NCBI RefSeq assembly: GCF_008711325.1 | Contig: NZ_VXDB01000018.1 | Location: 1 to 64,000 of the forward strand | DNA from: Roseibium sediminis | GTDB lineage: Bacteria > Pseudomonadota > Alphaproteobacteria > Rhizobiales > Stappiaceae | Length of the DNA: 64,000 bases | Reading direction: 5' to 3' | In this document: positions 26,957-38,936 of the stretch, one piece after another | Layout: each line of letters begins with the position of its first letter | Numbering within the stretch: position 1 is the first letter of the stretch | Notes under the pieces: generated by a model | What the model was told of the DNA's origin: nothing | The model's database searches: none | Seen by the model: only the letters and a program-made list of their open reading frames with translations | Made by a program: the position numbers and the translations under genes

Positions 26957-27436
26957 ATGAGTGAGTTGCGATCCGGAGGGTGTCAGTGTGGAGCTGTCCG
27001 GTTCAAGGTGGACGGGGCGCTGGGGGAGGCGTCTGTTTGCCATTGCCGCATGTGCCAGAAGGCCTTCGGGTCCTTTTATGCGCCGCTGGTGTCTGTATCC
27101 GAGGATCGCCTTGAGTGGACCCGCGGGCAGCGGGCACAGTTTCAGAGCTCCAATCATGCCACGCGCGGGTTCTGCCGCGACTGCGGTACGCCGCTGACCT
27201 ATGAAGCGCCGGACGGAATTGCTCTGGCCATCGGTGCATTTGATGATCCGCGCGAAATTGCACCTGTTGTGGCTTTCGGAGTGGAGGGAAAGCTTCCCTA
27301 TGCTGACGGAGTTTCGACCCTGCCCAACCGGGTGACGGAAGACGATATGGAAGCAGCTCCGTTTCTGGCCAGCCTCGTCTCCCTGCAGCATCCGGATCAT
27401 GACACCGCCGAGTGGCCGCCAAAGGAGCGCTCATGA
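26957..27436 (+). CDS. GFA-family (Mss4-like) zinc protein, first copy
   Basis: A 159-aa protein of the glutathione-dependent formaldehyde-activating (GFA) family. Zinc ligands are CQCGAVRF (9-16), CHCRMCQKAFG (about 28-38) and CRDCGTPL (about 72-79), the usual CxC, CxxC and CxxC sets. GFA proteins were named for accelerating S-hydroxymethylglutathione formation, but most members are uncharacterised. GAGGGAGAG precedes the ATG. Its stop overlaps the next gene's start (ATGA), and the three genes to cimA form an operon. Confidence 0.87.
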   Translation: MSELRSGGCQCGAVRFKVDGALGEASVCHCRMCQKAFGSFYAPLVSVSEDRLEWTRGQRAQFQSSNHATRGFCRDCGTPLTYEAPDGIALAIGAFDDPREIAPVVAFGVEGKLPYADGVSTLPNRVTEDDMEAAPFLASLVSLQHPDHDTAEWPPKERS

Positions 27437-27909
27437 CTGTAAATGCGAGGCTTTCCGGGGGATGTCAGTGTGGCGCCGTGCGGTACACCGTGTCCGAATT
27501 TGGTCGTTCGTCACTATGCCACTGTCGCATGTGCCAGAAGGCCTTGGGCGGACCCTTTGCCGTGTTGGTGACGGCGAAGGATCTGGAATACACACGCGGA
27601 AATCCGACCTACTTTCAAAGTTCAAACAAGGTTCGTCGCGGGTTTTGCAAGGACTGTGGATCGCCGCTGACCTTTGAATTTGAAGGCTGGCAGCCGGACA
27701 TCACCGTGACGAGCCTTGATGATCCAACCGTTGCCCCGCCGATTATCCAGCTTGGGACGGAAAGCCGACTGCCCTGGTGCGAAGGCCTATTCGACTTGCC
27801 TTCCGATCAAGGAAACCCCGATGGGCAAGGGCCCATATCCTATCAACATCCTGACCACGACACGACACACTGGCCGTCAGACAAGACCGAGGACGGAAAA
27901 TACGCATGA
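27433..27909 (+). CDS. GFA-family (Mss4-like) zinc protein, second copy
   Basis: A 158-aa paralogue of the preceding GFA protein with the same zinc ligands: CQCGAVRY (11-18), CHCRMCQKALGG (about 29-40) and CKDCGSPL (about 73-80), and the same C-terminal QHPDHDT. The clear similarity suggests a tandem duplication followed by divergence. It overlaps both neighbours by ATGA (upstream GFA stop and cimA start), so translation is probably coupled. Confidence 0.87.
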   Translation: MTVNARLSGGCQCGAVRYTVSEFGRSSLCHCRMCQKALGGPFAVLVTAKDLEYTRGNPTYFQSSNKVRRGFCKDCGSPLTFEFEGWQPDITVTSLDDPTVAPPIIQLGTESRLPWCEGLFDLPSDQGNPDGQGPISYQHPDHDTTHWPSDKTEDGKYA

Positions 27910-34451: not shown

Positions 34452-34868
34452 ATGGGCCAACAGGTGAATGACGATGATGTTCCCGCGTGCCTCAATACCG
34501 GCGAATTTGAAGACCTTGCGCAGATCTACCGCGCGTTGGGGCATCCGGTTCGCCTCGCGATCCTGAGCGATTTGCGCCGTGTTGAAGTGGCCTGTTGCGG
34601 CGAGATCGTGAACCGTCTGCCGCTTGCCCAGTCGACGGTCTCTCAACATCTGCAGGTTCTGAAGGATACGGGTCTGGTTGTTTGCGAAAGCACCGGGCGC
34701 TCGTGTCAGTATCGCATCAATGTCGACCGCCTTGAGCAGGCGGCCGAGCAATCTGCCTCCTATTTGTCCAGGGTTCAAAGCGCACCGGAAAACGACGCCT
34801 CGGCACAGGCGTCTGCCTGCACAAAAGGGCCGGGTCGCGGCGAAGAAAAGGAAACGGCTTTTGACTGA
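34452..34868 (+). CDS. ArsR-family metalloregulator-like repressor
   Basis: A 138-aa ArsR/SmtB-type winged-helix protein. LAQIYRALGHPVRLAILSDL (split at the family helix, about 22-41) leads to VEVACCGEIVNRLPLAQSTVSQHL, where a Cys-Cys pair sits at the place of the ArsR metal box. A further Cys follows in VVCESTGRSCQYRI, and the C-terminal tail holds another (ASACTKGP). AGGAG precedes ATG 34452. Its stop overlaps the probable TTG start of the ABC exporter gene, so the two form an operon in which ArsR likely represses the exporter in the absence of thiol-reactive metal. Confidence 0.88.
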   Translation: MGQQVNDDDVPACLNTGEFEDLAQIYRALGHPVRLAILSDLRRVEVACCGEIVNRLPLAQSTVSQHLQVLKDTGLVVCESTGRSCQYRINVDRLEQAAEQSASYLSRVQSAPENDASAQASACTKGPGRGEEKETAFD

Positions 34869-36792
34869 TAGAACCGCGTCTGCCCGTGACGGCGAAAACG
34901 CAAAACCTGCGGCAAAAGCTGCGCAGACCCAAAAAGCCGTGAGTGCGGATGAGGGCACAACGTACCAGACGCTTGTAAACCTTTGGCCCTATATCTGGCC
35001 GGAAAACAGACCTGACCTGAAAGCACGCGTGCTGTTGGCGATCTTTGCGCTGGTGATTGCAAAGATCGTGACGGTTCTGTCTCCCTATTTCTTTGCCTGG
35101 GCATCGGATGCGCTGACGGGTGAAACTTCCAACTTGCCGGCCTTTCTTGTCGCCCCGGTCATGCTCGTGCTGGCTTATAATGTGGCCCGCGTACTGGCCG
35201 TTGCCTTCAATCAGTTGCGAGATGCGCTCTTTGCCCAGGTCGGGCAGCATGCGGTGCGCCAGCTGGCCATCATCACCTTTCGCCATCTTCACCGGCTCTC
35301 GTTGCGGTTTCATCTGGCACGGCGCACGGGTGGTCTCAGCCGGGTAATCGAGCGCGGGGTGAAGGGGATTGAGGCGATTGTCCGTTTCACGATCCTCAAC
35401 GGCATCCCGACAATCCTCGAATTTGCCATCATGGCAGCTGTGATCTCGATCCAGTTCGGCATGAGCTACCTCACCATCGTGGCGATCATGATCGTTGCCT
35501 ATGTGTGGTTCACCATCAAGGCGTCGAACTGGCGCATCGCCATTCGCCGGGAGATGAACCAGAGCGATACGGAGGCCAATTCCAAGGCCATCGATAGCCT
35601 GCTGAATTTCGAGACGGTCAAATATTTCGGCAACGAGAACATGGAAGCCGCGCGCTTTGATGTCTCCATGGAACGCTATGAGGCAGCCGCCACACGCACA
35701 TGGACGTCGCTTGCCTGGCTGAACTTCGGGCAGACGGTGATCCTCGGCGTGGGGATGGCAGCCTGCATGGTTCTTTCCGCGCAGGCGGTGATGGCGGGTG
35801 AGCAAACGATTGGCGAGTTCGTTCTCATCAACGCCCTGTTGATGCAGATTTCCATTCCGCTCAATTTCATCGGCTTCATCTACCGCGAAATCCGTCAGGG
35901 TCTTGCCGATATTGAATCGATGTTTGATCTGCTCGGCGCGCCGACGGAAATCGAGGACAAACCGGGAGCGGGGCCACTGAGGGCGGTTGAAGGTCGCATC
36001 GAATTTCGGGATGTGCATTTTCACTATGATGCGGACCGCAAGATTCTGAAAGGTATCGACTTTGACGTGCCCGCGGGCAAGACGATTGCCATCGTTGGCC
36101 CGTCCGGCGCAGGGAAATCAACGATCTCCCGTCTCTTGTTCCGCTTCTACGATGTAACGGGCGGTGCAGTGACCATTGACGGTCAGGATGTTCGGGACGT
36201 CACGCAAGAGAGTGTTCGCATGGCCATCGGCATGGTGCCGCAGGACACGGTGCTCTTCAACGACACGATCGCCTACAACATCCGCTATGGCCGTCCGGAT
36301 GCATCCGACGAGGAAATTCGTCAGGCCGCACGAATGGCGCAGATCCACGAGTTCATTGAAGGACTGCCGCAAGGCTATGACACGGAGGTCGGTGAGCGCG
36401 GGCTGAAACTGTCAGGCGGGGAGAAACAGCGTGTGGCCATTGCCCGTACGATCCTCAAGTCGCCGCCCATCCTCATTCTGGACGAGGCGACTTCGGCACT
36501 CGACACCCACACGGAGCGGGAAATTCAGACCGCGCTGGATCAGGTCTCGAAAAACCGCACGACGCTTGTCATCGCGCACCGGCTTTCGACAGTCGTCAAT
36601 GCGGACAAGATCATCGTGCTGGAGGCCGGGCGGATTGCCGAATGCGGAACCCACTCGGGCCTGCTGGAGGCAAATGGCCTTTATGCATCCATGTGGGCAC
36701 GCCAGCGCGAGGCAAGCGAGGCTGAAGAGCGCCTTCGGGCCGCTCAGGAGGCCGATGATATGGGCATCGTGACCCGAGGCCCGAAGGCGTAG
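34861..36792 (+). CDS. Atm1-like ABC exporter (fused TMD-NBD)
   Basis: A 643-aa half-transporter of the Atm1/HMT1 class that exports glutathione conjugates, metals or sulfur species. Six helices span about 60-330. The NBD has Walker A GPSGAGKST (about 415), signature LSGGEKQRVA (about 518) and Walker B ILILDEATSA (about 538). The start is taken as TTG 34861, overlapping the arsR stop (TTGACTGA), with AGGAAA upstream; longer readings run through arsR in another frame. The last 60 nt before the stop are duplicated at 37621-37680. The native C-terminus was probably four residues longer (ADAPD) before the insertion. Confidence 0.87.
   Translation: MTDRTASARDGENAKPAAKAAQTQKAVSADEGTTYQTLVNLWPYIWPENRPDLKARVLLAIFALVIAKIVTVLSPYFFAWASDALTGETSNLPAFLVAPVMLVLAYNVARVLAVAFNQLRDALFAQVGQHAVRQLAIITFRHLHRLSLRFHLARRTGGLSRVIERGVKGIEAIVRFTILNGIPTILEFAIMAAVISIQFGMSYLTIVAIMIVAYVWFTIKASNWRIAIRREMNQSDTEANSKAIDSLLNFETVKYFGNENMEAARFDVSMERYEAAATRTWTSLAWLNFGQTVILGVGMAACMVLSAQAVMAGEQTIGEFVLINALLMQISIPLNFIGFIYREIRQGLADIESMFDLLGAPTEIEDKPGAGPLRAVEGRIEFRDVHFHYDADRKILKGIDFDVPAGKTIAIVGPSGAGKSTISRLLFRFYDVTGGAVTIDGQDVRDVTQESVRMAIGMVPQDTVLFNDTIAYNIRYGRPDASDEEIRQAARMAQIHEFIEGLPQGYDTEVGERGLKLSGGEKQRVAIARTILKSPPILILDEATSALDTHTEREIQTALDQVSKNRTTLVIAHRLSTVVNADKIIVLEAGRIAECGTHSGLLEANGLYASMWARQREASEAEERLRAAQEADDMGIVTRGPKA
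36730..36789. repeat. 60-bp direct repeat, left copy (3' end of the ABC exporter gene)
   Basis: Identical at 59 of 60 positions to 37621-37680. It encodes the exporter's last residues up to GPKA. Its own ends are inverted: CGCCTTCGGGCC at 36730 and GGCCCGAAGGCG at 36789 (12 bp, perfect). Confidence 0.95.
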
Positions 36793-36820
36793 GTGTTAAC
36801 GGGTAGCTGAAAGTAGATCG

Positions 36821-37600
36821 ATGCAGTGGATCCTTCAAAAATTTGAGGATACGGAAAATCTAGTACCAATCCTTGAGCGTTTGGGCGCTAGATGGTCTTG
36901 GCACAAGGTTGTTCCATTCGTGGGAGACCTTTTTCCGGAACCTGTTGTTGAAGATCCAAGCGCTGTTGTCATGTTTGGTTCTTATTCACTGAGGTTCTTT
37001 TCCGAGCGGCGAGGTTATCGACCTGGAGTGTTCGTAATCAGACCATTTGTCCATCAGGAGGCCTGGTACCCATTTTTGTTGAATGGTCGCAATGCTCAGT
37101 TTCTGACTGTCAGGGATATACCTGCACATCTTCCAGATGACGGAAAAGACTGGTTCTTCCGTCCTGTTGATGACAGCAAGGCTGAACCAGGAAGTGTCAT
37201 GTCAGCAAGGGATATCATTAGCCTTGCTGAGCAGGTGCTGCGTCTGAAGGAAGATGAAACTCCAGTTGGTTCGTTACGCCACGATACTGAGTTGATGTTG
37301 AGTGAGCCGAAACGCATCCTAAAGGAGTGGCGCCTTTGGATCGTTGGTGCGCAGATTGTCACGTACTCCCTTTATAGGGATGGAAGTCGTGTTGTGTACC
37401 GCCATGAAATTGATGAAGACGCCTTGGAATTTGCCAAGACAATGGTTTCCCTACATCCAGATTATTCGCCAGCCTACGTGATGGATGTGTGCCGGACAGA
37501 AGAAGGCCTTTTTATCGTCGAAACTAACTGCCTAAATGCAGCTGGATTTTATGCGGCAGACTTGGAAAAACTTGTGAATGCTATCGAGGAGATCGGTTAG
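36821..37600 (+). CDS. ATP-grasp domain protein (DUF4343/R2K-like)
   Basis: A 259-aa protein that looks like a divergent ATP-grasp of the R2K type (DUF4343). Supporting features are KDWFFRPVDDSKAEPGSVM (about 107-125), with the Arg and Lys expected to contact nucleotide, EWRLWIVG (about 169-176), and the C-terminal metal-binding strand AYVMDVC followed by LFIVETNCLNAAGFYAADL. ATP-grasp enzymes of this clade are predicted peptide or protein ligases, often in phages and biological-conflict loci; no activity is known for this one. No clear ribosome site. It is flanked by 60-bp direct repeats and has a base composition unlike its neighbours, so recent acquisition is likely. Confidence 0.75.
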   Translation: MQWILQKFEDTENLVPILERLGARWSWHKVVPFVGDLFPEPVVEDPSAVVMFGSYSLRFFSERRGYRPGVFVIRPFVHQEAWYPFLLNGRNAQFLTVRDIPAHLPDDGKDWFFRPVDDSKAEPGSVMSARDIISLAEQVLRLKEDETPVGSLRHDTELMLSEPKRILKEWRLWIVGAQIVTYSLYRDGSRVVYRHEIDEDALEFAKTMVSLHPDYSPAYVMDVCRTEEGLFIVETNCLNAAGFYAADLEKLVNAIEEIG

Positions 37601-37620
37601 GGTGAGTTGTATTGTCTCCC

Positions 37621-37680
37621 CGCCTTCGGGCAGCTCAGGAGGCCGATGATATGGGCATCGTGACCCGAGGCCCGAAGGCG
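37621..37680. repeat. 60-bp direct repeat, right copy
   Basis: The second copy of 36730-36789, differing only at its twelfth base (A for C). It is followed by GATGCGCCTGACTGA, the probable original end of the exporter gene. Its inverted ends are 11 bp (CGCCTTCGGGC and GCCCGAAGGCG). Confidence 0.95.
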
Positions 37681-37701
37681 GATGCGCCTGACTGATCAAG
37701 G

Positions 37702-37985: not shown

Positions 37986-38936
37986 ATGAGACTGGATGAC
38001 CTAAGCTTCTTTGCCCGTGTTGCCGAATTGGGCAGCTTGTCCGCAGCCGGACGCGAATTCGGCCTGTCGCCGTCGGCGGCAAGCAGCCGGCTGACCAATC
38101 TTGAAAGGGATCTCGGCACACAGCTCGTGGCCCGCACAACCCGCCAGGTCAACCTGACCGAGGCGGGCAAGATCATGCTGGACCATGCTCGTGCAGCTCT
38201 GGGCGAGATTGCTCAGGCGAGAGCGTCGATTGATGCGGCTCAGGACGCGCCGCGCGGCATTTTGAAACTGTCTTCGAACGTGTTTTTCGGGCGCAAGCAT
38301 ATCCTGCCGTATCTGGCAGAGTTTCGGCAGCTCTATCCGGACCTGCGGCTGGAAGTGGACATGTCCGACCGGCTGGTCGATCTGGTTGCGGATGGCTATG
38401 ACGTTGCCATTCGTGGCGCGCCGCTGCCAGATTCCAGTTTGCTTGCCCGCAAGCTGGGCGGCAATCCGCGTGTCCTTTGTGCCAGTCCCGACTACATTGC
38501 ACGGAAAGGCGAACCGCGAAATCCGGAAGAACTGTGCAATCACGACTATATCGGATTTGACCCGATGCCGGTCTGGTACTTCGCCGGGCCGGAGGGGGAG
38601 GTTGCCTTTCCGCTGAAAGACCCTGTCATTTGTGGAGATAGCGGTGATTTTGCCTATGATGCTGCGCTCTATGGCTTGGGATTGACGGTCAAGTCCATTG
38701 CCCATGTCTGGGAGGATTTGCGTGACGGACGGCTTGTTGAAGTCATGACCGATTATCCGGTGACGCGAACCGGCAATATTTATGCAGTCTATCCGCCAAA
38801 CAGGTTCGTGCCGCCGAAGGTGTCCGCATTTGTCGATTTTCTGATCTCCAAATACGGGAGACCACCCTATTGGGAGACCGACTACAGGCTCGCTCGCGGG
38901 GACAGTTCTGTTAAGAGCGGCACGAAAACAGCCTGA
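37986..38936 (+). CDS. LysR-family transcriptional regulator
   Basis: A 316-aa LysR-type regulator. The N-terminal winged helix (1-60) contains FFARVAELGSLSAAGREFGL and SPSAASSRLTNLERDLGTQL. The effector domain follows (about 90-295), with LKLSSNVFFGRKHILPYL and a VDLVADGYDVAIRGAPLPDSSL-type segment (split by one strand), as in the DmlR/CrgA-like group. Length is typical. It is divergent from the 62-aa gene, a possible target. Effector and regulon are unknown. Confidence 0.9.
   Translation: MRLDDLSFFARVAELGSLSAAGREFGLSPSAASSRLTNLERDLGTQLVARTTRQVNLTEAGKIMLDHARAALGEIAQARASIDAAQDAPRGILKLSSNVFFGRKHILPYLAEFRQLYPDLRLEVDMSDRLVDLVADGYDVAIRGAPLPDSSLLARKLGGNPRVLCASPDYIARKGEPRNPEELCNHDYIGFDPMPVWYFAGPEGEVAFPLKDPVICGDSGDFAYDAALYGLGLTVKSIAHVWEDLRDGRLVEVMTDYPVTRTGNIYAVYPPNRFVPPKVSAFVDFLISKYGRPPYWETDYRLARGDSSVKSGTKTA

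Follow-up and report, generated by a model that had tools for sequence, protein, structure and literature searches.

The atm1-like exporter gene of the marine bacterium Roseibium sediminis carries at its 3' end a real, derived insertion of a single gene, flanked by a 60-bp duplication of the host gene that is bounded exactly by a hairpin. Insertion with long target duplication is already known; a duplicated stretch with exactly the limits of a hairpin is new here. The link to the hairpin is firm for this case, suggestive for a second insertion in the same genome (a ccdAB pair), and absent from a third. We favour a lineage-specific insertion with long target duplication as the explanation, at a probability of roughly 0.5. 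How single genes enter bacterial genomes when no transposase or integrase accompanies them is not well understood. The exact agreement between the limits of a duplication and those of a hairpin suggests a concrete step, namely cutting at the hairpin bases, and with similar cases present in one genome the process can be tested both comparatively and experimentally.

The atm1 end and its hairpin-bounded repeat

The window (the whole 64,000-nucleotide stretch analysed, from contig NZ_VXDB01000018.1) contains the atm1-like ABC exporter gene on the forward strand at 34861..36792, with matches to ABC_membrane and ABC_tran. The open reading frame is listed from 34678, and we place the start near 34861 from the ORF starts of congeneric genes. 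It ends at 36792 with a TAG immediately after the first repeat copy, the protein now ending in GPKA. The earlier note, made from the letters of the window, had described a 60-nt repeat with one mismatch and a resumption of the exporter frame behind its second copy, and both hold. Copy 1 lies at 36730..36789 and copy 2 at 37621..37680 (both forward strand, start-to-start distance 891), with 59/60 identical positions and a single mismatch (C at 36741, A at 37632). Copy 2 reads RLRAAQEADDMGIVTRGPKADAPD and then stop; the sequence that follows it, GATGCGCCTGACTGA, encodes DAPD plus stop and, by this reading and by congeneric ends, is the displaced native atm1 end (37681..37695, forward strand), the gene in this lineage continuing to GPKADAPD behind copy 2. 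The idea that the insertion restored the end of its host gene is true of nearly the whole end, but the last four residues (DAPD) are lost; the insertion may be tolerated because all other residues are kept. The downstream LysR gene (37986..38936, forward strand) starts 291 bp from the native atm1 stop and is the downstream neighbour of atm1 in 14 of the 16 congeners read.

Copy 1 is an imperfect palindrome, and its limits are those of a 12-bp perfect inverted repeat (CGCCTTCGGGCC/GGCCCGAAGGCG), a point absent from the earlier note; within the same limits copy 2 has an 11-bp inverted repeat. The DNA folding energy of the hairpin with short flanks is -23.8 kcal/mol (z -5.3), and that of the bare 60 nt is -22.7 and -20.3 in the two copies. 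Terminal arms of at least 9 bp are found in 2 of the 63,941 60-bp segments of the window, and arms of at least 11 bp in 2 of the 1,622,575 segments of a genome sample (1,627,840 bases, about one third of the own genome, window included); in both counts the two segments are the copies themselves. It is therefore very unlikely that the ends of the repeat coincide with the ends of the palindrome by chance, and since only the two copies have arms of at least 11 bp, the duplication is tied to a hairpin at the atm1 end. The direct repeat itself is beyond what chance would give: others of at least 30 bp within 5 kb, sought in 464,000 bases of the own genome, were confined to one 330-bp tandem-repeat stretch, and the only further match to the 60 bp in the own genome is a partial one of 17 bp. 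A search of Rfam at E up to 1 returned one microRNA match of 25.6 bits, against a gathering score of 80.

The same 60 nt from 16 congeners fold at -7.7 to -18.9, most strongly in G015 and G017. Because these atm1 ends also fold to a degree, the hairpin tendency is partly native, and the coding sequence may explain part of the palindrome. A REP-transposase origin of the hairpin was considered and rejected, as the one Y1 transposase of the genome looks IS200-like and has different hairpins. Its gene (L132, on G000:C11), the sole Y1 match in the genome, is flanked on both sides by CCTCCACC hairpins.

Eighteen congeners were searched for atm1, of which 16 matched and were all read (G004 and G008 gave no match). 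The 1.4-4 kb read downstream of atm1 contains no R2K match in any of the 16, and no part of the atm1 end longer than 16 bp recurs there; each has a single atm1 end, the empty site that the earlier note had anticipated, so that the arrangement of the window is not one that all relatives carry. The start of the LysR gene follows the atm1 stop at 271-349 bp in 11 of the 16 and at 742, 742 and 1083 bp in three with longer spacers; in the other two (G014 and G015), which lack a LysR match, psd lies about 200 bp beyond atm1. In the identified content of the 16 sites, which leaves aside the longer spacers of three (742-1083 bp), no integrase-bearing island was recognised at atm1. The 60 bp are atm1 coding sequence in the congeners too, for example EERLRAAREEDDLGIVLRGPRAGETVE in G017, and the repeat is therefore host sequence. 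This, together with the absence of R2K gene and repeat from all 16 sites, indicates that the insertion is derived, as judged on the 16 congeners read.

The inserted R2K gene and its relatives

The unique segment between the copies (36790..37620, forward strand, 831 bp) opens with a TAG in the atm1 frame and has a G+C content of 0.475, compared with 0.576 in the 1.63-Mb genome sample, which fits a foreign origin. It contains an apparently intact gene for an R2K-clade ATP-grasp protein of 259 residues (36821..37600, forward strand), with margins of only 31 bp before and 20 bp after it. The earlier identification of one AT-richer DUF4343/R2K-like gene is thus confirmed by G+C and by Pfam profiles (PF14243 R2K_3, 5e-21, 76 bits with a cut-off of 26.3; PF18299 R2K_2, 2e-13). 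The protein is full length against its homologs and keeps K120, E169/R171, D222 and E234/N236; K120, E169/R171 and E234/N236 are invariant across 22 aligned rows, the motifs being assigned by eye and K120 being the one diagnostic lysine assigned. As had been claimed, the unit carries no integrase: neither the ORF list nor Pfam gave a transposase or integrase in the 831 bp, R2K is the one ORF of substance, and the insert has no partner gene. The protein gave no match in PADLOC or NCBIfam, and matches PHROG 7313, a family without annotated function. No promoter-like site was found at the insert and no terminator-like sites at its junctions, one chance-level terminator-like site lying inside the R2K gene; the gene may be transcribed from the atm1 transcript. 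For the R2K family a role in phage-host conflict and a peptide-ligase activity have been proposed as predictions (PMC4431377), in agreement with the earlier note's link to phage and conflict systems. By family prediction, the enzyme is probably a peptide ligase that is retained because it acts in conflicts with phages.

R2K matches occur in 10 of the 45 genomes of the genus, the own genome included (9 of 44 congeners). In seven of the nine congeners the gene lies at one shared locus, beside a TPR gene or the other neighbour of that locus, and two of these seven are damaged (a fragment in G053, and a gene split between frames in G031). In G034 and Stappia BW2 it is located elsewhere; next to the TPR gene of BW2 a match of 22 residues remains. 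In the own genome the start of the TPR gene is 278 bases from a contig end. At the level of the order, five of 397 genomes match at E 1e-20, own included. The best identity of any homolog to the window copy is 67%; phages of Rhizobium and Sinorhizobium have homologs with up to 52-54%, and among plasmids five records match, the best at 62% over most of the protein. Viral contigs contained no stretch matching the search patterns. In a tree the window protein falls outside a 20-row set containing the congeners' copies, albeit at a weak fork, and no close donor was found among the sequences searched.

The earlier note had suggested that the R2K gene moves together with flanking repeats of this type, and had looked to other 60-bp duplications around the same gene. 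Neither expectation was borne out at the R2K loci tested (22 besides the window, representing 18 distinct places, plus 9 more): none has a flanking direct repeat comparable to that of the window, those present being mostly of 11-19 bp, and the 60-bp sequence itself is absent from the nine loci tested for it. The longer pairs are one of 32 bp at L045 and L058, which judged from sequence resembles pieces of a tRNA-Val gene, and one of 37 bp (86% identity) at a phage locus. As far as tested, the window R2K gene thus appears not to be a mobile unit of its own.

Some other R2K loci have features in their own right. Five genes of the Roseobacter group (L052, L054, L059, L060, L061) share a GCTGACATTCG-like stretch downstream, and four share about 110 nt upstream, with wider contexts differing, as a moving unit might; no link between these flanks and the window insertion was found. 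One of them, the gene of Ruegeria haliotis (L054), is on a 3,042-base contig with a coverage of 1423, possibly a high-copy element. The BW2 gene (L044, L109, L110) lies among a dispersed family of repeats of about 190 bp, which in G043 and G047 also forms loose arrays that include single genes.

Similar insertions elsewhere in the genome

The 1,627,840 own bases were scanned for direct repeats of at least 20 bp at a distance of 250-4000 bp. Apart from rows explained by repeated genes or dispersed repeats, some of them on the listing alone, the scan yielded two cases that resemble the one in the window. In one, a ccdAB toxin-antitoxin pair (CcdA 1.6e-20, CcdB 7e-18) is flanked on each side by a copy of one terminator hairpin (29/30 identical positions), at G000:C106:92770-92799 and 93430-93459 (L164:12770-13459). 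Of 29 congeneric loci, three (G045, G051, G034) have these convergent neighbours at a distance of 52-66 bp, with a single hairpin between them as judged by eye; the remaining 26 lack the VWA neighbour and are uninformative. On one side the repeat goes four A's beyond the hairpin; its pattern fits 425 of 1,625,005 30-bp segments. The link to the hairpin is suggestive here.

In the other case, beyond the end of the window on the same contig, the last 29 bp of a rhodanese-like gene (identified by eye) are repeated (28/29; G000:C27:93495-94086, L219:9495-10086), copy 2 continuing in frame to KVNEAG and stop. The insert (G+C 0.431) contains a 140-residue ORF without Pfam match that looks like a membrane protein. 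This repeat forms no hairpin (-0.5 kcal/mol), and the hairpin is therefore not general; we regard the case as a weaker candidate insertion. In the sample all three repeats occur twice, further matches being partial ones of 15-17 bp. With two more insertions of similar appearance in this genome, there is a hint that genes were gained in such a way more than once.

Among 127 other loci (644,357 bases, five that overlap the window repeat left out) seven repeats were found, none with palindromic ends, and in 400 kb sampled from G017, where L251 was read and the other rows were judged from their listing, no case was recognised. Candidates rejected in the own genome were L150 and L213 (paralogous or repeated coding sequence), a 29-bp repeat within the window at 26960-27700 (row 27038), caused by two adjacent paralogous small genes that are GFA-like by eye, and the dispersed repeats L205 and L224. 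L205:1590-2529 (G000:C95) has a GIY-YIG-like ORF, seen by eye, among several dispersed intergenic hairpin repeats. Rows L136, L143, L231, L232, L235 and L240 were assessed on the listing alone, and L133, a tandem stretch, had been dropped beforehand. L136 contains a perfect 19-bp palindrome repeated 4.3 kb apart, which we took for an operator-like site.

Origin of the insertion and known systems

We propose that both strands of the atm1 end would have been cut at two opposite hairpin bases, possibly by a housekeeping structure-specific nuclease, that an R2K fragment would then have been joined to the cut ends, and that fill-in of the 60-nt overhangs would have produced the 60-bp direct repeat; template switching at the same two points would be equivalent. 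Evidence for an insertion of this kind comes from the coincidence of repeat ends with palindrome ends, the empty sites of congeners, the foreign-looking cargo, the second case, ccdAB, and, with less weight, the third. Breakage of palindromes has been described for E. coli (PMC3315005, PMC4245961). The genome has no Ku match, and canonical end joining is therefore unlikely. Against the mechanism, the insert is trimmed to one gene more tightly than random capture predicts, and terminators, as in the ccdAB case, are located at places that tolerate insertions anyway. Moreover, a 12-bp stem with arms 36 nt apart is expected to extrude poorly from duplex DNA.

Other origins of the same arrangement have to be weighed. 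The earlier note had compared the unit to integrative elements at gene ends, and an integrase may have used the palindromic atm1 end as an att site, leaving an element since shrunk to one gene, or may have acted in trans. The duplicated 3' end with its immediate replacement stop codon is in keeping with this, palindromic arms could suit a recombinase, and integrase-like genes, below the integron cut-off, are present in the genome. The likeness stands in that the gene end is nearly restored; it is weakened in that the unit has no integrase, that no integrase-bearing island was recognised at the 16 congeneric sites and that the repeat ends exactly at the hairpin. Arms 36 bp apart are also unlike a usual recombinase core site, and we consider this origin unlikely, while still deserving weight. 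Somewhat more doubtful is template switching during replication, in which synthesis would leave at one hairpin base, copy R2K and re-enter at the other base without a double-strand break. It would give the same product as staggered cutting, from which it cannot be separated on these data, and would need neither Ku nor transposase, but its donor must be in the cell and no close donor was found. Entry by homologous recombination of a circle with R2K and the atm1 hairpin already on it, excised from the atm1 of another strain, is improbable: the repeats would permit such an excision and 59/60 identity fits a recent exchange, but the first insertion is merely moved elsewhere, and the R2K loci examined have neither such repeats nor, at the nine tested, the 60-bp sequence.

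We see as a long shot that Roseibium has an undescribed gene-capture process, its enzyme yet to be found, which would install compact conflict genes (R2K, ccdAB) at gene-end hairpins; both hairpin bases would be cut and the hairpin duplicated, as by Cas1 at CRISPR repeats but with whole genes. The draft state of the genome (117 contigs) might suggest that the assembly joined two places at the 60-bp repeat, which is very improbable, as the assembly contains just two copies, differing by one base and both at this locus, and the flanking host genes on either side are neighbours in congeners too. An R2K gene ancestral at atm1, with a local duplication of the gene end, is scarcely credible: nine of 44 congeners do have an R2K match, but congeneric R2K genes are located elsewhere, and absence from the site in all 16 congeners read refutes this history for them.

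Compared with known systems, the unit differs from an integrative element at a gene end in not encoding its own integrase. Integron cassettes pair a single gene with a foldable site some 60 bases long, and the window shows a similar pairing, in which the repeat, however, is host coding sequence; no GTTRRRY pair (the attC core) was seen by eye at the junctions, and integron integrase profiles gave four part-matches in the genome below the cut-off and none over it. Spacer acquisition by CRISPR systems is, in the available part of PMC4940900, an integration at a palindrome that duplicates the palindrome, and the window insertion likewise duplicates a palindrome at its integration site; its insert, however, is of 831 bp rather than 30-40 bp, there is no array, and the genome has no Cas1 match. 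The protein belongs with the R2K-clade ATP-grasp enzymes (DUF4343) by its Pfam match and conserved residues, yet its best match is R2K_3 while it has ExN, in contrast to the ExGD given for R2K.3 in the available text of PMC4431377. The description of insertion with long target duplication comes from work on Helicobacter pylori (Nobusato et al. 2000; PMC1643837, PMC3031569); such insertion is, in the portions available, frequently associated with restriction-modification genes. That association does not extend to the window, where the cargo is R2K (with ccdAB elsewhere); that the duplicated target is exactly a hairpin goes unmentioned in the same portions of these papers, and, at the level of titles and opening lines of abstracts, the available literature on long target duplication, cruciforms and hairpins at target duplications, palindromes as insertion targets, palindrome breakage, ccdAB insertions and R2K/DUF4343 did not yield the combination of such an insertion with a hairpin-bounded duplication. 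The features shared with long target duplication are an insert absent in relatives, a long target-derived repeat and the lack of a transposase or integrase: in both, genome comparison reveals an inserted gene between repeats that derive from the target and are longer than the usual duplications made by transposons.
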